Shown piece by piece: positions 21,182 through 62,549 of a stretch of DNA of 64,000 bases. Positions within the stretch are counted from its first letter, which is position 1, and every line of letters begins with the position of its first letter. Source of the DNA: Komagataeibacter oboediens (GTDB lineage: Bacteria > Pseudomonadota > Alphaproteobacteria > Acetobacterales > Acetobacteraceae). Below the pieces are notes generated by a model that saw only the letters and a program-made list of their open reading frames with translations, was not told where the DNA came from and ran no database searches. The stretch spans positions 1-64,000 of the forward strand of contig NZ_NKTX01000007.1 of the NCBI RefSeq assembly GCF_003207815.1, given 5' to 3'. The translations under genes were made by a program, and so were the position numbers.

Positions 21182-21303
21182 AACGCCTTGAATATATATT
21201 GGACGTACGAACCCGGCTGGCTCACCATCCCACTGCAATCACACATGACCGGGAAGCGCGGCGCCCATGCTTGCGCTGCCACCCGATGCAGGAGACTGAG
21301 GTC

Positions 21304-22089
21304 TTGAAGCTGAAATGCTACTCGGCAGGCGATGTCGATACCCGCTCCAGCGCCGCGGATGCGACTGGCGTGCGTCCGCGCATGAACCGCCTGTACCAGA
21401 CGTCCACCATGGCAGCGCTGCTTGATGCGGTGTACGATGGGGAAACCACGCTTGATGAACTGCTGATGCACGGCAATTTCGGGCTGGGCACGTTCAACGC
21501 GCTGGATGGCGAAATGATCGTCAATGACAGCGTGATCCACCAGTTTCGCGCCGATGGTCAGGCGGGCCGCGTGCCCGGTGATCTCAAGACCCCGTTCGCA
21601 TGTGTCACCTTCTTCAACCCGGAGAAGGAATACATGATCGATACCGCGCGCGACAAGGACGGGTTCGAGGCGATTGTCGACCAGCTGGTCAACAACCCCA
21701 ACCTGTTCGCCGCCGTGCGCTTTACCGGCATGTTCGAACGTGTCGAGACCCGCACCGTGTTCTGTCAGTGCCGCCCCTATCCGCCCATGCTTGATGTGGT
21801 CGCGCGTCAGCCGACCATGCAGCTGGGGGCATCTACCGGCACCATGCTCGGTTTCCGCACGCCGGGTTACATGCAGGGTGTGAACGTGGCGGGCTACCAC
21901 CTGCACTTCCTGACGGAAGACGGGCGTCGTGGCGGCCATGTGACCGATTACGCGGTGCTGAAGGGCAAGCTGGAAGTGGGCGTGATTTCCGATGTGGAAA
22001 TCCAGCTGCCCCGCACGGAACAGTTCGCCCGCGCCAACCTGTCCCCCGAAAACATTCACGAAGCCATTCGCGTGGCTGAAGGCGGCTGA
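21304..22089 (+). CDS. budA: Alpha-acetolactate decarboxylase
   Basis: The 261-residue enzyme decarboxylates (S)-2-acetolactate to (R)-acetoin. The zinc-site histidines are seen in VAGYHLHFLTEDGRRGGHVTDY (H-x-H and a third His), and the substrate-side LMHGNFGLGTFNALDGEM and VPGDLKTPFACVTFF segments are typical. I prefer the TTG start at 21304, with GGAG and GAGG at good distance; an ATG at 21286 in the same frame would add six residues. The downstream alsS gene is 81 bases away, so the two form an acetoin operon. Confidence 0.92.
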   Translation: MKLKCYSAGDVDTRSSAADATGVRPRMNRLYQTSTMAALLDAVYDGETTLDELLMHGNFGLGTFNALDGEMIVNDSVIHQFRADGQAGRVPGDLKTPFACVTFFNPEKEYMIDTARDKDGFEAIVDQLVNNPNLFAAVRFTGMFERVETRTVFCQCRPYPPMLDVVARQPTMQLGASTGTMLGFRTPGYMQGVNVAGYHLHFLTEDGRRGGHVTDYAVLKGKLEVGVISDVEIQLPRTEQFARANLSPENIHEAIRVAEGG

Positions 22090-22170
22090 GGGGGCTTCTC
22101 CCCTCCCGTTTACTTGGATTGACCGCCCGCGCCCTGGCTGCGGCGCCTCCCCGTTCAGGAATCTGGAACA

Positions 22171-23862
22171 ATGACTGACAAAAGCAAACCTGCCGCGCCT
22201 GAGTGCGGGGCGGACATGATCGTGCGCAACCTCGTCGCACATGGCACGACCCACGTATTCGGTATTCCGGGTGCGAAGGTGGACCGCCTGTTCGATGCAC
22301 TGGTGGACAGCCCCATCGAAACGGTTGTGACCCGTCATGAACAGAACGCCGCCTTCATCGCCGGTGGCATCGGCCGCCTGACGGGCAAGGCCGGCGTGGC
22401 GATTGCCACCTCCGGTCCCGGTGCGTCCAACTTCGTGACCGGCCTTGCGACCGCCAATTCCGAAGGCGACCCGGTGCTGGCCATTGGTGGCGCGGTCAAG
22501 CTGGCTGACCGGCTGAAGCTTACGCACCAGAGCATGGACACCGTTGCCCTGTTCCAGCCGATCACGAAATACAGCGCGGAAATCACCTCTCCCGCCGCCG
22601 TGTCGGAATGCATTTCCAATGCGCTGCGCTTTGCCGAAAGCGGGCGTCCGGGCGCGGCCTTCGTCAGCACGCCCATGGATATCCTGTCCATGCCAGCTGA
22701 AGGCAAGGTGCTGTCCGGCCGCAAGGTGCCCACCACAGGCGCCGCCCCGGCTGAAGCCGTGAACGAGGCCCTGACCCTGGTGCGCAAGGCGAAGCGTCCC
22801 GTCATCCTGCTGGGCCTGCTGGCCAGCCGTCCGGATGTGGCCGACGCGGTGCGCGCGCTGGTCGCGACGACGGGCGTGCCGGTCATTGGCACCTACCAGG
22901 CCGCAGGCGCGGTATCGGAAGAGCTGTCCGATCGTTTTGGCGGTCGCGTTGGCCTGTTCCGCAACCAGCCGGGCGACCAGCTGCTGCATGAAGCGGACCT
23001 GGTCATTTCGATTGGTTACAACCCGATCGAATATGACCCGTGGCTGTGGAATGTCGATAACGGCCGCAAGATCGTCCATGTCGATGTCGTGGCCGCTGAA
23101 CTGGACACCCATTACGATCCGGCGGTGGAACTGGTGGGTGACATTGCGGCATCCGTGCGTGCCCTTGCCGCACAGGCGGGCAAGCTGCCGCGTGCGCCGC
23201 AGCTGGAAGACATCCTGTCGCAGTATCACGCGACCCGTCTGGCCGCGCTGTCGGGTGCGCGCAGCACCAGCAATGCCGCGGTGCATCCGCTGCAGATCGT
23301 GCGTGAACTGGAGCCGTTCGTGACCCCCGATGTCACGATGTGCCTTGATATGGGCACCTTCCACATCTGGCTCGCGCGTTACCTGCTGTCCTTCCGTGCA
23401 CGCCAGATGCTGATCAGCAACGGCCAGCAGACCATGGGTGTCGGCCTGCCGTGGGGTATTGCCGCAAGCCTGGTCAACCCGGCGCAGAAGGTGATCTCCA
23501 TTTCCGGTGACGGCGGCTTCATGATGTCGTGCATGGAACTGGAAACGGCGGTGCGGCTGAAGTGCAACCTGATCCACATGGTCTGGGTTGATCAGGCCTA
23601 CAACATGGTCGAGATGCAGGAAAAGAAGAAGTACGGCCGAGGATCTGGCGTGGAATTCGGACCGATCGACTTTGCCATGTTTGCCCGTTCGTGCGGTGCG
23701 CACGGCATTGCGGTACAGTCCGCCGACGGGATTGCCGGTGCAATGCGCGAAGCCATGGACATCGAAGGCCCGGTCGTGATTTCGGTGCCGGTTGACTATT
23801 CCCAGAATCACCTGCTGATGAAGCCGCTGGCGACGCTGGGCGAGACGTCGGCCGCTGCGTAA
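22171..23862 (+). CDS. alsS: Catabolic acetolactate synthase
   Basis: The 563-residue thiamine-diphosphate enzyme condenses two pyruvates to acetolactate. The catalytic E57 is in VTRHEQ, and the cofactor motif starts at GDGGFMMSCMELETA and continues to WVDQAYNMVEMQ. The length, the lack of a small regulatory subunit gene nearby and the adjacent decarboxylase indicate the FAD-independent catabolic type (AlsS/BudB) rather than the biosynthetic IlvBN enzyme. It is the second gene of the acetoin operon. Confidence 0.92.
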   Translation: MTDKSKPAAPECGADMIVRNLVAHGTTHVFGIPGAKVDRLFDALVDSPIETVVTRHEQNAAFIAGGIGRLTGKAGVAIATSGPGASNFVTGLATANSEGDPVLAIGGAVKLADRLKLTHQSMDTVALFQPITKYSAEITSPAAVSECISNALRFAESGRPGAAFVSTPMDILSMPAEGKVLSGRKVPTTGAAPAEAVNEALTLVRKAKRPVILLGLLASRPDVADAVRALVATTGVPVIGTYQAAGAVSEELSDRFGGRVGLFRNQPGDQLLHEADLVISIGYNPIEYDPWLWNVDNGRKIVHVDVVAAELDTHYDPAVELVGDIAASVRALAAQAGKLPRAPQLEDILSQYHATRLAALSGARSTSNAAVHPLQIVRELEPFVTPDVTMCLDMGTFHIWLARYLLSFRARQMLISNGQQTMGVGLPWGIAASLVNPAQKVISISGDGGFMMSCMELETAVRLKCNLIHMVWVDQAYNMVEMQEKKKYGRGSGVEFGPIDFAMFARSCGAHGIAVQSADGIAGAMREAMDIEGPVVISVPVDYSQNHLLMKPLATLGETSAAA

Positions 23863-23886
23863 AACCGGCCGCATGCGTGGGTAAAA

Positions 23887-23928
23887 CGGCCCGCCACGCC
23901 CTGACCGGCGGGCGGGTCGTTCTGTTTG
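23887..23928 (+). terminator. Candidate terminator after alsS
   Basis: GCCCGCC (23889-23895) and GGCGGGC (23907-23913) form a GC stem that can extend through GGGTCGTT, then TCTGTTT follows. The T-tract is weak, so partial read-through to dld is possible. Confidence 0.5.
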
Positions 23929-24066
23929 GACATGTGACATCGGCATTTTATGCGCACGTCGTCCGATGCGGCACATGCCAGACTATGAAACGCCATTTTG
24001 GAAATGCGGCATGGGCCGACCACAGGTCGCCAGCAGGCTCCGGAATGGGATTGAGGAACAAATAAA

Positions 24067-25800
24067 ATGCTGAAAGCGGCACAGGACATGTCATCTACTG
24101 CGGGCGCACAACTGGTTACGGAACTTCAGCAGATCGTAGGCCACCACCATGTGCTGACCGAGGACGGGGCGACGCTGCCTTACCGTCGCGGGTTCCGTTT
24201 TGGTGAGGGACGTGCGCTTGCGGTGGTCATGCCCGGTTCGCTGGTGGAACAGTGGCGCGTGCTGCAGGCCTGCGTGAAAGCGGGCGTGATCGTGATCATG
24301 CAGGCGGCCAATACCGGCCTGACCGGCGGGTCCACGCCCGATGGCAATACCTATGACCGCGATGTGGTGATCGTGCACAGCATGCGCATGCGCACGATCC
24401 ACCTGATCGGGGAAGGCAGGCAGGTCGTCTGCCTGCCTGGCGCCACGCTGGACCAGCTGGAAAACATGCTCAGGCCCATCGGGCGCGAACCCCATTCGGT
24501 CATCGGGTCGTCATGCATTGGCGCGTCGGTATTCGGCGGTGTCAGCAACAATTCCGGTGGTGCGCTGGTACGCCGTGGGCCGGCCTATACCGACATGGCG
24601 CTGTTTGCGCAGGTATCGGACAAGGGCGAACTGCAACTGGTCAACCACCTGGGCATCGAACTGGGCAGCGACCCGGAGGAGATCCTGAAGCGTGCGGAGG
24701 AAGGCAACTTCCCTGAAGCCAGCATCAACTGGAACGCAGGCCGCGGGCATGATGATGACTACGCCCGCCATGTGCGTGACGTGAACGCTGACACGCCCGC
24801 ACGTTATAATGCCGACCTGCGCCGCCTGCATGAAGGGGCGGGCTGTGCGGGCAAACTGGGCCTGTTCGCCGTCCGCCTTGATACGTTCGAGGCCGAAAAG
24901 GATCCTGTCGTCTTCTATATCGGCACCAACCAGACCGATGTGCTGGAAGACGTGCGCCGTCATATCCTGTCGTCCTTTGCCGAACTGCCGATTGCTGGCG
25001 AATACCTGCATCGGGATGCGTTCAACATTGCCGAAAAATACGGCAAGGACACGTTTGTCATCATCCGCATGATCGGTACGAAACGCCTGCCGGCCATGTT
25101 CGCGATGAAAAACGCGTTCGATCGCCTGGCTGACAGGATTGGCTTCCTGCCCAAGCATTTCAGTGACCGGTTCATGCAGTTCATGAGCCATTTCTTCCCG
25201 CAGCACCTGCCTGCGCGCATGCGTGACTACCGTGACCGGTTCGAGCACCACCTGATGCTCAAGGTCAGCGCATCCGGCGCGCAGGAAGCACGGGATTTCC
25301 TGAAAAGCCATTTCGCGACGCATGAGGGCGAGTTCTTCGAATGCACCCCCGATGAGGGCGCGAAGGCATTCCTGCACCGCTTCGCCGCCGCCGGGGCCGC
25401 CGTGCGGTACCGCAATGTCCATACGGATACGACCGAAAACATCGTGGCGCTGGACGTGGCCCTGCGTCGGAATGATCAGGACTGGTTCGAGGTACTGCCC
25501 AAGGACATTGATGACGAGATCATCGTCAAGCTGTACTATGGGCATTTCCTGTGCCACGTGATGCATCAGGATTACGTGGTCCGCAAAGGGTATGACTGCA
25601 TGGCGCTGGAACACCGCATGCTGCCGCTGCTGGACCGGCGCGGGGCGCGGTACCCGGCGGAACATAATTTCGGGCACCTGTATGCTGCGCCCGATGACGT
25701 GCTGGCCCATTACCGCCAGCTTGATCCGTGCAACTGTTTCAATCCGGGCATTGGCCAGGCCACCAAGCGCCGGAACTGGGTTGCCGAAAGTGTAGGTTGA
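24067..25800 (+). CDS. dld: Quinone-dependent D-lactate dehydrogenase
   Basis: This 577-residue FAD protein matches the Dld family, a peripheral membrane enzyme that oxidises D-lactate to pyruvate and passes electrons to ubiquinone. Seen are the FAD-binding segment QAANTGLTGGSTPDG, the GSSCIGASVFGGVSNNSGGALVRRGPAYT stretch and the C-terminal cap with HHLMLKVSA, MHQDYVVRKG and a final CNCFNPGIGQ. Length is that of E. coli Dld. It lies between the acetoin operon and the pdc locus, so lactate-derived pyruvate is produced next to its consumers. Confidence 0.92.
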   Translation: MLKAAQDMSSTAGAQLVTELQQIVGHHHVLTEDGATLPYRRGFRFGEGRALAVVMPGSLVEQWRVLQACVKAGVIVIMQAANTGLTGGSTPDGNTYDRDVVIVHSMRMRTIHLIGEGRQVVCLPGATLDQLENMLRPIGREPHSVIGSSCIGASVFGGVSNNSGGALVRRGPAYTDMALFAQVSDKGELQLVNHLGIELGSDPEEILKRAEEGNFPEASINWNAGRGHDDDYARHVRDVNADTPARYNADLRRLHEGAGCAGKLGLFAVRLDTFEAEKDPVVFYIGTNQTDVLEDVRRHILSSFAELPIAGEYLHRDAFNIAEKYGKDTFVIIRMIGTKRLPAMFAMKNAFDRLADRIGFLPKHFSDRFMQFMSHFFPQHLPARMRDYRDRFEHHLMLKVSASGAQEARDFLKSHFATHEGEFFECTPDEGAKAFLHRFAAAGAAVRYRNVHTDTTENIVALDVALRRNDQDWFEVLPKDIDDEIIVKLYYGHFLCHVMHQDYVVRKGYDCMALEHRMLPLLDRRGARYPAEHNFGHLYAAPDDVLAHYRQLDPCNCFNPGIGQATKRRNWVAESVG

Positions 25801-25843
25801 GCGCCCGCCGCGCCCGGCGGCGCCCCTGCTGTCCTTTCGGCAT

Positions 25844-25865
25844 GATGGCCCGGTTGCGGGCCATC
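25844..25865. terminator. Perfect hairpin between dld and pdc
   Basis: GATGGCCCG and CGGGCCATC form a 9-bp stem with the loop GTTG, 43 bases after the dld stop and 74 bases before the pdc start. There is no T-tract. It may attenuate or stabilise a transcript end. Confidence 0.4.
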
Positions 25866-25938
25866 CATGTGGCTCCCCCCGCATGGGGCAAGGGCGCGGT
25901 ATCCCGCGCCCCCACACAAGGGAAGGAAAGTCGAAATA

Positions 25939-27353
25939 ATGACGTATACAGTTGGCCATTACCTTGGCGAACGCCTGGCGCAGATCGGGCTGAAGGATCA
26001 TTTCGCGGTCGCGGGCGACTACAATCTTGTACTGCTTGACCAGCTTCTTGAAATTGACGGCCTGCGGCAGGTCTACTGCTGTAATGAACTGAACTGTGGT
26101 TTCAGTGCCGAAGGCTATGCCCGCGCTAATGGCGCCGGGGCTGCCGTCGTCACCTTCAGCGTGGGTGCACTGTCCGCGCTGAACGCCATTGGCGGCGCAT
26201 ATGCCGAAAACCTGCCGGTCATCCTGATTTCAGGTGCGCCCAACTCCAACGATCATGGCAGCGGACATATCCTGCACCATACCATTGGTACGCCGGATTA
26301 TTCCTATCAGCTTGAGATCGCCAAACGCCTGACCTGTGCGGCGGTGTCGATCACCTCGGCCGAGGATGCGCCGGTACTGATCGACCATGCCATCCGCACC
26401 GCGCTGCGTGAAAAGAAGCCGGCCTATATCGAAATCGCGTGTAACGTGGCCCCGATGCCATGCCCGCGTCCCGGCCCGGTTGGCGCGATTCTGGCCGATG
26501 CACCGTCCGACCCGGAAACGCTGAAGCTGGCGGTTGACGAACTGGCCAGCTTCATTGCCGCGCGCAAGAAGCCGATCATGCTGGTGGGCAGCCGCCTGCG
26601 TGCCGCAGGATGCGAGGATGCCGCCATTCGGCTGGCTGATGCGCTGGGCTGCGCCGTGACCACCATGGCTGCCGCCAAGAGCTTCTTCCCCGAGGATCAT
26701 CCCGCCTATGCCGGGACCTACTGGGGCGATGTCAGCAGCCCCGGCGCACAGCAGATCTTTGACTGGGCGGATGGCGTGCTGTGCCTGACCCCGGTATTCA
26801 ACGATTATTCCACCGTTGGCTGGACCGCGTGGCCCAAGGGCGACAATGTGGCGCTGATGGATGCGCGGCATATCGCAGCCGGTGGCAAGGCATTTGATGG
26901 CGTGCACCTGCGTGACGTGATCGAGGGCCTGATCGACAGGCTGAAGGGCCAGCCGAAGAAGGATGCGACGCTGGTTGAATACCGTCGCATCAAAACTCCC
27001 GAGGCCCCGGTCGCCGCGGCAGAACCCAATGCCCCGCTGGTGCGTGCCGAAATGGCCCGTCAGATTCAGGGCCTGCTGACATCCGATACATCAGTCATCG
27101 CCGAGACCGGGGATTCCTGGTTCAACGCCATACAGATGAAGCTGCCGCACGGCGCGCGCGTGGAACTGGAAATGCAGTGGGGCCATATCGGCTGGTCCGT
27201 TCCCGCCACCTTCGGTTATGCTGTGGCGGCACCGGAACGCCGGATCATCGCCATGATCGGCGATGGCTCCTTCCAGCTGACTGCACCAGCGACCTGATTT
27301 CGTGGGGGCGCCGCGTTGCGACCGCCAACGCCCGGCCGCCGGCTGCGCGCTGA
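25939..27353 (+). pseudogene. pdc: Pyruvate decarboxylase, disrupted by an internal frame-shifting deletion
   Basis: The locus encodes residues 1 to about 448 of a pyruvate decarboxylase: [13 protein letters not shown] start behind GGAAGG, the catalytic Glu in CCNELNCGF, the HH pair in GHILHHT, and the thiamine-diphosphate motif start GDGSFQLTA. There the frame runs into PAT and TGA (27295-27297), giving a 452-residue product where the family has about 557. In another frame from 27279 the sequence reads [19 protein letters not shown] and ends at TGA 27351-27353, which is the normal PDC C-terminus. So about 90 codons are missing between the two, including the NN half of the GDG...NN cofactor motif. 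The junction carries GACTGCA (27279-27285). The product should not bind cofactor and is expected to be inactive. Confidence 0.9.
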
Positions 27354-27382: not shown

Positions 27383-27406
27383 GGGGGTGCCTTCGGGCGC
27401 CCCCTT
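27383..27406 (+). terminator. Hairpin terminator of the pdc locus
   Basis: GGGGGTGCC and GGCGCCCCC form a 9-bp stem (one G-U pair) with the stable UUCG loop, 30 bases after the original pdc stop. Only TTGT follows, so the T-tract is short. Confidence 0.6.
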
Positions 27407-27460
27407 GTCGTATGGGACGTATTTTCCACGGGCTGTTTCCATGGTCCGCAGATCATCGGG

Positions 27461-27536
27461 ACGTTTTTGGCGAAGCTTTTTTCAGGAAGCTTCGGAAAAC
27501 CTCGTCTTTTTGAACAAAGGCGACACCCGGAAAATT
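27461..27536 (+). repeat. Tandem-hairpin intergenic repeat, copy 3
   Basis: The copy reads GTTTTTGGCGAAGCTTTTT then AGGAAGCTTC (first hairpin), then CCTCGTCTTTTTGAACAAAGGCGACACCCGG-like second hairpin and a GAAAATTTT end. It lies between the broken pdc gene and the Nudix gene, downstream of the pdc hairpin. Confidence 0.75.
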
Positions 27537-27597
27537 TTATTATTTTTTATCAACGGATTGTTTCCAGACAGGGTCTTAAACGGGAAGAGGTCGGATA

Positions 27598-58344: not shown

Positions 58345-59088
58345 ATGCGGTCTGTGATGTCATGTTTCCTTTCGGTCCCGTCCCTGTGCCGCCAGTGGGG
58401 CAGGGTGGGCATCCTGGCATGTGGCGTGTCGCTGGCATGCGTGGGGCTGGCCCGGGCCGATGACAGCGGCAACCTGACCCTGCAGCTATTGGATCGCGTC
58501 AATGCGTTGGAAGACCAGACACGGCAGATGCGTGGCCAGATCGACCAGTTGACCAATCAGGTCCAGCAGCAGAATGCCACGCTCAGCAAGCAGGTGGAGG
58601 ATATGAACTTCGCCATGCAGCATGGCCATGGTGGCGCGGCAGCCGGTACTGCAATGGCCGCGCCTGCAGCCGCTGCCACGGGCGCAGCACCTGCGGCCGT
58701 CAAGCGCACGCCGGATGAGGTGCTGAAAGCCGGGAATGAGGCGCTGCTGAAACAGGATTACGCCACGGCGCAGGCCGATGCGCAGCAGGTCCTGTCCGGT
58801 CCCAAGTCACCCCGGCAGGTTGATGCCCAGTACCTTCTGGCGCAGTCGCTGGCGGGGCAGAAACAGTACCGCCAGTCCGCGCTGGCCTATTATGATGCCT
58901 ATAACCGTGCGCCACACGGACAGCGCGCGCCCAGCGCCCTGCTGGGGGTGGCGGCCACGCTTGTGGCGCTGAATGACAAGGCTTCGGCCTGTCAGGCGCT
59001 GGACAAGCTGTCCAGCGAGTTTCCCGAACCCGCCGCCCGTATCAAATCCGCTGAACAGGTCTATCGTAAACGCGCCAAATGTAACTGA
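58345..59088 (+). CDS. cpoB: CpoB/YbgF-like cell-division coordinator
   Basis: The 247-residue secreted protein has a signal peptide (VGILACGVSLACVGLARA), a coiled-coil segment (LLDRVNALEDQTRQMRGQIDQLTNQVQQQ), an Ala-rich hinge and a C-terminal TPR domain. CpoB couples Tol-Pal constriction to septal peptidoglycan synthesis. I start at the ATG at 58345, with AGAGGG 8 nt upstream; a GTG at 58324 is possible. The pal terminator precedes it, so it may also be made from a separate promoter. Confidence 0.88.
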   Translation: MRSVMSCFLSVPSLCRQWGRVGILACGVSLACVGLARADDSGNLTLQLLDRVNALEDQTRQMRGQIDQLTNQVQQQNATLSKQVEDMNFAMQHGHGGAAAGTAMAAPAAAATGAAPAAVKRTPDEVLKAGNEALLKQDYATAQADAQQVLSGPKSPRQVDAQYLLAQSLAGQKQYRQSALAYYDAYNRAPHGQRAPSALLGVAATLVALNDKASACQALDKLSSEFPEPAARIKSAEQVYRKRAKCN

Positions 59089-59104
59089 TTGGCGGGCGGC
59101 GCTG

Positions 59105-60379
59105 GTGACTTCGGCTGAACCGGTCAATCCGTCACGTTTTGCCGCCATGATGGCATCCCTTGGTCCCTGGCCGGGTGCGGGCGTGCCGGTTGCGGTTGCG
59201 GTATCTGGCGGGGCGGACAGCATGGCGCTGGCCATTCTTGCGCGGCAGTGGCGGCGCGATGTGGTGGCGCTGGTGGTGGACCATGGCCTGCGGGCCGAAT
59301 CCCGGACTGAAGCCGAACAGACCCTTGCCCGGCTGTCCACCCTGGATATTCCCGGCCGGCTGCTGGTGCTGACGGGACTGGAACGCGGAAGCCGCATGGC
59401 GGAACGTGCCCGGCGCATGCGCTATCAGGCGCTGTCTGCGGCCTGTCGCCAGATCGGGGTGCTGGATCTGCTGGTGGCCCATCATGCGGGGGATCAGGCG
59501 GAAACGGTCATGATGCGCGCGCGTGCCGACAGTGGCGATGACGGGCTGGCGGCCATGGCGATCGTGACCCCCACGGTCGATATACGCATTGTCCGGCCAT
59601 TGCTGGCGTTTCCCAAGGCCGCCCTGTACGCCACCGTCCGTGCTACAGGCGTGGCGTGGGTGGAAGATCCGTCGAATCATGACCTGCGTACGGAACGCGC
59701 GCGGGCGCGGCAGGCGCTGGCCCATGACGGGGGCCATGCCGCGCGCCTGCTGATGGAGGCCCGTCGTGCCGGGGCGGGACGCATGGCGCGGGATGCGGCG
59801 GATGCCCGATGGCTTGCGGCCCATGCCCGGTTTCATTGTGGGGGGTGGGTGGTGCTGCCTGCCGGGCTGGCGCCCGCGCGGCTGCTGTCCGCCCTGATCC
59901 GCGTAGTGGCCGGGCGGGATTATTCCCCGGCGCGCGACGCGGTGGAACGGCTGGTCCATGCGCCCCGGCCCGCGACCCTGGCCGGGGTGGCGATTATCCC
60001 GTGGCGCGATGGGCAATGGATCATCGCGCGCGAAGAATCGGCGGTTTCGCCGCCCGTTATCGCGCGCGTGGGCGAGATGTGGGACCGGCGCTTCGTGCTG
60101 CGGGCGCAGCACCTGCCCCATGGCTGGACCATGGGGGCGGCAGGCGCGGTTGCATCATGGTGGCCAGGCGGGCGACCACGCTCTATCTGGCCCGCACGCG
60201 TGTTGCGTACGCTGCCTGCGCTATGGCATGATGGACGTGTGATGGCCGTTCCGCATATCGGGCTGCGCACGCAGGATTGTGTGGCCGATGCGGTTTTTGT
60301 GAACCAGCCACCCCACCCCGTGTTGCCCGGAACCATGTTTTATGGCCCCGATGACGAACGTTCTGATCCATTGTCATAA
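59105..60379 (+). CDS. tilS: tRNA(Ile)-lysidine synthase
   Basis: The 424-residue PP-loop enzyme attaches lysine to the wobble cytidine of tRNA-Ile(CAU), which is essential for reading AUA. The ATP-binding loop is VAVSGGADSMALAI, and VAHHAGDQAETVMMRARADSG follows. I start at the GTG at 59105, just downstream of the cpoB stop, giving a length close to E. coli TilS; frames reaching 58973 would overlap cpoB. Confidence 0.88.
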   Translation: MTSAEPVNPSRFAAMMASLGPWPGAGVPVAVAVSGGADSMALAILARQWRRDVVALVVDHGLRAESRTEAEQTLARLSTLDIPGRLLVLTGLERGSRMAERARRMRYQALSAACRQIGVLDLLVAHHAGDQAETVMMRARADSGDDGLAAMAIVTPTVDIRIVRPLLAFPKAALYATVRATGVAWVEDPSNHDLRTERARARQALAHDGGHAARLLMEARRAGAGRMARDAADARWLAAHARFHCGGWVVLPAGLAPARLLSALIRVVAGRDYSPARDAVERLVHAPRPATLAGVAIIPWRDGQWIIAREESAVSPPVIARVGEMWDRRFVLRAQHLPHGWTMGAAGAVASWWPGGRPRSIWPARVLRTLPALWHDGRVMAVPHIGLRTQDCVADAVFVNQPPHPVLPGTMFYGPDDERSDPLS

Positions 60380-62511: not shown

Positions 62512-62549
62512 TATCCGGCCCACAAAATCCCGCATTGGCAGAATGATTG

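Follow-up and report, generated by a model that had tools for sequence, protein, structure and literature searches.

The thiamine diphosphate (ThDP)-binding motif of pyruvate decarboxylase (PDC) is GDGS...NN, and an accession for the PDC of Komagataeibacter oboediens is listed in the same report (PMC4428508). The gene, pdc, is also mentioned for K. oboediens IMBG180 and IMBG185 (PMC8970348). Ethanol induces both pdc copies and dld in K. xylinus E25 and represses budB and alsD (PMC6667682). Published work also describes Gluconobacter oxydans 621H strains from which pdc was deliberately deleted (Peters et al. 2013, as cited in PMC4588806; IK003.1 in PMC7055074). In the literature on pdc pseudogenes and on pdc loss in acetic acid bacteria, no report of the loss described below was found.

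The window analysed here, the whole stretch of 64,000 nucleotides, carries a pdc gene that has probably lost 280 internal bp recently by illegitimate deletion: comparison with relatives points to a formerly functional gene, the last in the order alsD-alsS-dld-pdc, whose product should now be inactive. Such a loss is ordinary pseudogenisation of a known gene and no new kind of system. The features of the locus are as follows.

21199 to 22089, forward strand: alsD, alpha-acetolactate decarboxylase, intact (PF03306, 256.4 bits)
22171 to 23862, forward strand: alsS, catabolic acetolactate synthase, intact (NF006378 at 814.6 bits and TIGR02418 at 782.1 bits, both over cut-off)
24067 to 25800, forward strand: dld, FAD-linked membrane D-lactate dehydrogenase, directly upstream of pdc (NF008387 at 953.9 bits, cut-off 391)
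25939 to 27297, forward strand: truncated pdc reading frame of 452 residues, the first 447 being native PDC
27278 to 27282, forward strand: apparent deletion junction, CAGCTGAC (upstream) joined to TGCACCAGCGAC (downstream), the simplest break lying between 27281 and 27282
27279 to 27353, forward strand: out-of-frame remnant of the normal PDC C-terminus (24 residues and a stop)
27383 to 27404, forward strand: GC-rich inverted repeat GGGGGTGCCTTCGGGCGCCCCC after pdc, recognised by eye

The alsD-alsS-dld-pdc cluster (21199-27353) lies on one strand and is colinear with the relatives G003 and G002. The PF03306 match of alsD begins at residue 65 of a TTG-started frame, and the true start may be further in. 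We read the cluster as a unit of lactate and pyruvate metabolism, in which D-lactate would be converted to pyruvate, and pyruvate either to acetaldehyde (by PDC) or to acetoin (by AlsS and AlsD). The inverted repeat at 27383-27404 is likely the pdc terminator; it does not appear in the terminator-scan output for the window, and a similar inverted repeat follows pdc in 17 of 18 relatives (it is absent in L015). Positions 27443-27570 of the window, just after pdc, hold a dispersed repeat element. It measures about 70-150 bp and seems to be palindromic (in relatives, GCCGCCTTTTT...AAAAAGGCGGC); weaker copies occur on the contig near 3208-3283, 9346-9417, 79334-79404 and 82644-82717, and each examined stretch of G001, G002 and G003 has related copies at several places.

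Starting at 25939, the pdc frame follows native PDC sequence up to GDGSFQL and then ends in T-A-P-A-T and a TGA stop at 27295-27297, while the remnant of the PDC C-terminus runs to its own stop at 27351-27353 in a different frame from the 25939 start. A full-length PDC has about 560 residues and three TPP-enzyme domains (the intact congeneric orthologues L008, L009 and L010 translate to 564 residues), of which the window pdc, at 452 residues, falls short. Its N-terminal and central TPP domains score above their cut-offs, covering 106 of 119 and 115 of 137 profile positions, respectively. The PF02775 match is confined to profile positions 24-61 of 151 (25-62 in a second scan), and the frame scores below every NCBIfam curated cut-off; a partial frame from a relative's pdc that was included in the NCBIfam comparison is left out of account. 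GDGS of the ThDP motif is kept, and the NN half has gone with the deletion.

The nature of the missing piece was established by comparison within the genus Komagataeibacter, in which the nearest named relative of the window is K. intermedius TF2. The genus search comprised 19 genomes, the window's own (G000) and 18 others, and all 18 others carry a pdc orthologue that is 88-98% identical, with an open frame of 565-607 codons and no internal stop. Every one of these 18 orthologues has, in the alignment, the stretch that is absent from the window pdc, and in each of them the distance from GDG to the stop is 124 residues. Worked out from match coordinates, the loss is 280 bp relative to G003 and likewise to G002, and an offset of 280 bases puts both ends in register in 18 of 18. 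About 93 codons have been lost, among them those for the NN of GDGS...NN and for GYTIEV, a stretch that carries a catalytic glutamate; since 280 is not a multiple of three, the pdc frame is shifted. The orthologue is intact at the same locus in all 18 genomes, and the flanks are colinear with G003 and G002. A search for the missing 280 bp elsewhere in the G000 assembly found no copy, the best of 28 chance-level matches spanning 27 bases (E 0.26). The original prediction, made from the window alone, is thus confirmed in its reading of a PDC frame stopping at 27295-27297 and of the normal PDC end in a second frame stopping at 27351-27353, and the frame change and loss of the NN half are borne out by the alignment with the 18 congeneric orthologues. 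The internal loss also stands, with its size corrected from about 275 bases to 280 bp against G003 and G002, and comparison with the relatives supports the view that a frameshifting deletion inside pdc has inactivated it.

The mechanism proposed at the outset, loss of the bases between two GACTGCA copies leaving a 7-bp microhomology scar, is not supported by the same comparison. With the relatives taken as stand-ins for the undeleted sequence, the upstream site reads GACCGCG in nine of the congeneric orthologues, GACGGCG in six, and CACCGCG, TACGGCG and TACCGCG in one each, so that GACTGCA occurs there in 0 of 18. Across the 103 rows from loci L008-L116, which take in duplicates and paralogues, it occurs at this site once, in a Commensalibacter. 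The downstream site is GACTGCA in 13 of 18 congeneric orthologues and GATTGCA in four of the five nearest relatives (L008, L009, L011 and L012). The apparent 7-bp repeat arises because the joined ACTGCA happens to encode T-A, like the native ACGGCG. The exact overlap at the junction is 0-4 bp, varying with the relative taken as ancestor: a lost segment with the right end GATGAC (10 of 18) gives the overlap TGAC, 4 bp; GACGAC (3 of 18) gives 3 bp; and GATGAT or GACGAT (5 of 18, the nearest included) gives 0 bp. Near the endpoints, the longest exact match run is 2-4 bp in all 18. By a simple base-frequency estimate, a random join would overlap by 3 bp or more in about 6% of cases, by 4 bp or more in about 2%, and by 7 bp or more in about 0.06%. 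The similarity of the two ends is also unexceptional: in 17 of 18 relatives, 4-33% of the pairs taken at the same spacing within the gene reach an equal score, and in L021 65% do. A repeat scan of the intact G003 sequence found no direct repeat joining both endpoints, only short imperfect pairs. An imperfect 11-nt inverted pair (82%) near both ends in G003 was considered as a hairpin that might have caused the loss, and was regarded as chance. With an overlap of only 0-4 bp, the scar says little about mechanism, and the deletion would be best described as illegitimate, with an overlap little above what a random join is expected to give. This correction matters to anyone who would use the scar as proof of mechanism or of authenticity.

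An illegitimate deletion of this kind would remove 280 internal bp of pdc, shift its frame, and take away the NN half of the ThDP motif together with most of the C-terminal domain, and the truncated PDC is predicted to be inactive. The acetaldehyde branch of the cluster would be removed and the acetoin branch left, and pyruvate from D-lactate and sugars would then pass to acetolactate and acetoin, to acetyl-CoA, or to export. PF02775 and PF02776, for the C-terminal and the N-terminal TPP domain, give the same six places in G000, i.e., AlsS, a biosynthetic acetolactate synthase, a benzoylformate-decarboxylase-like enzyme, IolD, an indolepyruvate-decarboxylase-like enzyme, and the broken pdc, the two "-like" names being best matches below curated cut-offs. 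A second intact pdc, which the original prediction had named as the finding that would make the broken gene a redundant remnant, was sought in G000 with these two profiles and with protein searches, and no close one was found. The nearest PDC paralogue is the indolepyruvate-decarboxylase-like enzyme, 33% identical and encoded on contig C245 near 52-53 kb. Among the matches listed for the 19 genomes, a second close pdc (67-69%) occurs only in G006 and G015. Plasmid-borne pdc proved irrelevant, with three records from Gluconobacter and Granulicella matching at 71-73% identity over 49-53% of the query. With no close second pdc found by these searches, the loss of acetaldehyde formation is plausible, and the cell would presumably lack PDC activity. 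The 33%-identical paralogue could overlap with PDC in activity, and the effect on overflow metabolism we therefore only infer.

The alternative that survives best is an error of assembly or gap closing, in which the strain's pdc is intact and its flanks were joined across a poorly covered 280-bp stretch; we consider this possible but rather unlikely. It had been discounted at first because of the clean repeat logic of the scar, an argument that falls with the 7-bp scar itself. The assembly is a draft of 278 contigs, the remaining pdc is fully constrained and free of other lesions, as expected of an intact gene, and the absence of the missing piece from every other contig is as compatible with a coverage gap as with a deletion. 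The pdc copies taken as functional that are reported in the genus (PMC4428508 and PMC8970348) also count against the deletion reading.

Colinearity between the window and G003 extends for about 65.8 kb, and the gaps inside their aligned blocks number 48, each of 1-22 bp. Between the blocks lie two larger losses, the 280 bp of pdc and about 150 bp at 62516-62519, where the window has 4 bases against 157 in G003, and 1 against 137 in G002. A second loss on the same contig favours an assembly fault, though this one is intergenic, lying between ftsH and folP, where it breaks no gene, on the dispersed intergenic repeat. The extra G003 sequence in this gap resembles the dispersed repeat at many intergenic-looking places, and the gap arises because the repeat is present in one genome and absent from the other; we read it, from these matches, as repeat-element variation. 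Since no gene is broken and the site is a repeat, this second loss leaves the odds for the pdc deletion unchanged. Of 48 genes of conserved extent on the pdc contig, 45 are full length and three are partial. One of these three is pdc, one has no indel in the DNA alignment, and in one the difference is limited to the first 28-29 residues.

Contig C245 (86.5 kb) of G000, which served as a control, has no gap of at least 24 bp inside its aligned blocks against G002 or G001, with length differences between blocks of up to about 1 kb. The 61 genes kept for this control comprise 42 full-length genes, three partial ones and 16 without a match, 15 of which precede the matched stretch (G002 region coordinates below 42,033); one, of 312 aa, is wholly absent inside it. 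Among the partial genes, one is a 32%-identity paralogue match outside the stretch, one is an apparently spurious frame in which the gaps cancel, and the third is 89% covered. The 312-residue frame is conserved in extent in G002 and G001 and absent from G000:C245 at about 61.7-61.9 kb (compared with L145, G002:C321), a whole-gene difference rather than a truncation. The control speaks against an assembly error, since C245 has no such gap within its blocks and none of its genes could be shown to be truncated by a deletion (the partial gene that is 89% covered being left aside). So does the junction, where the overlap is at most 4 bp. An overlap of this size is too short for an ordinary read-overlap join by an assembler, though a single local fault would still be conceivable. 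We infer that the deletion is present in the organism and not merely in the assembly.

How old the pdc deletion would be was judged from the substitutions in the remaining gene, which were polarised with four outgroups (47 of 58 differences could be polarised and 11 could not). The window branch carries 19 synonymous and 2 nonsynonymous changes, and the sister branch 23 synonymous and 3 nonsynonymous changes. Relative to G003, dN/dS is about 0.05 for the pdc remainder, 0.04 for dld and 0.02 for alsS; the ninth flanking frame, 58973-60376, contains a gap and was left out of this comparison. The window frame has no second lesion. With no decay preceding the deletion, the event is young or else an assembly fault, and the pattern of changes suggests accordingly a pdc loss that is recent or only apparent. 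An older pseudogene, drifting since the split from the nearest relative, would agree with the broken frame and its out-of-frame tail; however, a fully neutral window branch would be expected to hold about 57 nonsynonymous changes against the 2 observed, which limits the neutral share of the branch to less than about 11% at 95%, and together with the single lesion this makes such an origin very improbable. Least credible of all is that the 452-residue protein keeps a function, e.g., in mixed tetramers with the remaining paralogue: its frame is otherwise conserved and its N-terminal and central TPP domains exceed their cut-offs, but recency accounts for the conservation, the half-motif that binds the cofactor is gone, and the nearest paralogue is only 33% identical.

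If the deletion is in the organism, this strain of K. oboediens is a natural pdc-null in a genus whose 18 other searched genomes all have the gene intact at this locus, and such a strain would be useful for asking what role PDC has in vinegar and cellulose bacteria. In the wider family, a PDC match at E <= 1e-100 is found in 30 of 150 genomes. The pdc of G143 (L154:2001-3659; G143:C1, about 512721-514379) contains three in-frame stops (two TGA and one TAG) and is otherwise complete, and pdc is intact in G064 (L155), of the same genus; the G143 gene is apparently an independent pdc pseudogene. In both pdc copies of G090, L156 on C34 and L157 on C74, the N-terminal third contains frame breaks and undetermined residues, for which masking or poor assembly is a likelier cause than gene loss. 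Judging by the window gene and that of G143, natural loss of pdc may have happened more than once. A broader scenario, in which pdc would have been lost repeatedly and recently in acetic acid bacteria as the natural counterpart of the engineered deletions, favoured by selection when acetaldehyde carries a cost or when carbon from lactate and sugar is put to better use in acetoin, exported pyruvate or cellulose, appears doubtful to us.

We compare the window pdc with three known or related cases. First, it resembles the bacterial PDC of acetic acid bacteria (e.g., that of G. diazotrophicus, PMC4428508) in that its sequence before the junction aligns full-length, with equal spans, to the 18 intact genus orthologues, whereas about 93 codons, including NN, are missing and its C-terminal tail is out of frame. 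Second, the broken pdc of G143 is like the window gene in having an intact relative in the same genus (G064), and it differs in being interrupted by stop codons rather than by a deletion and in belonging to another Acetobacteraceae genus. Third, the engineered G. oxydans 621H strains (PMC4588806 and PMC7055074) have in common with the window that an acetic acid bacterium has lost the function of pdc; those deletions are deliberate, and the strains export pyruvate instead of acetate and reach a higher final cell density, whereas the loss in the window is natural or apparent and is seen in the sequence alone.
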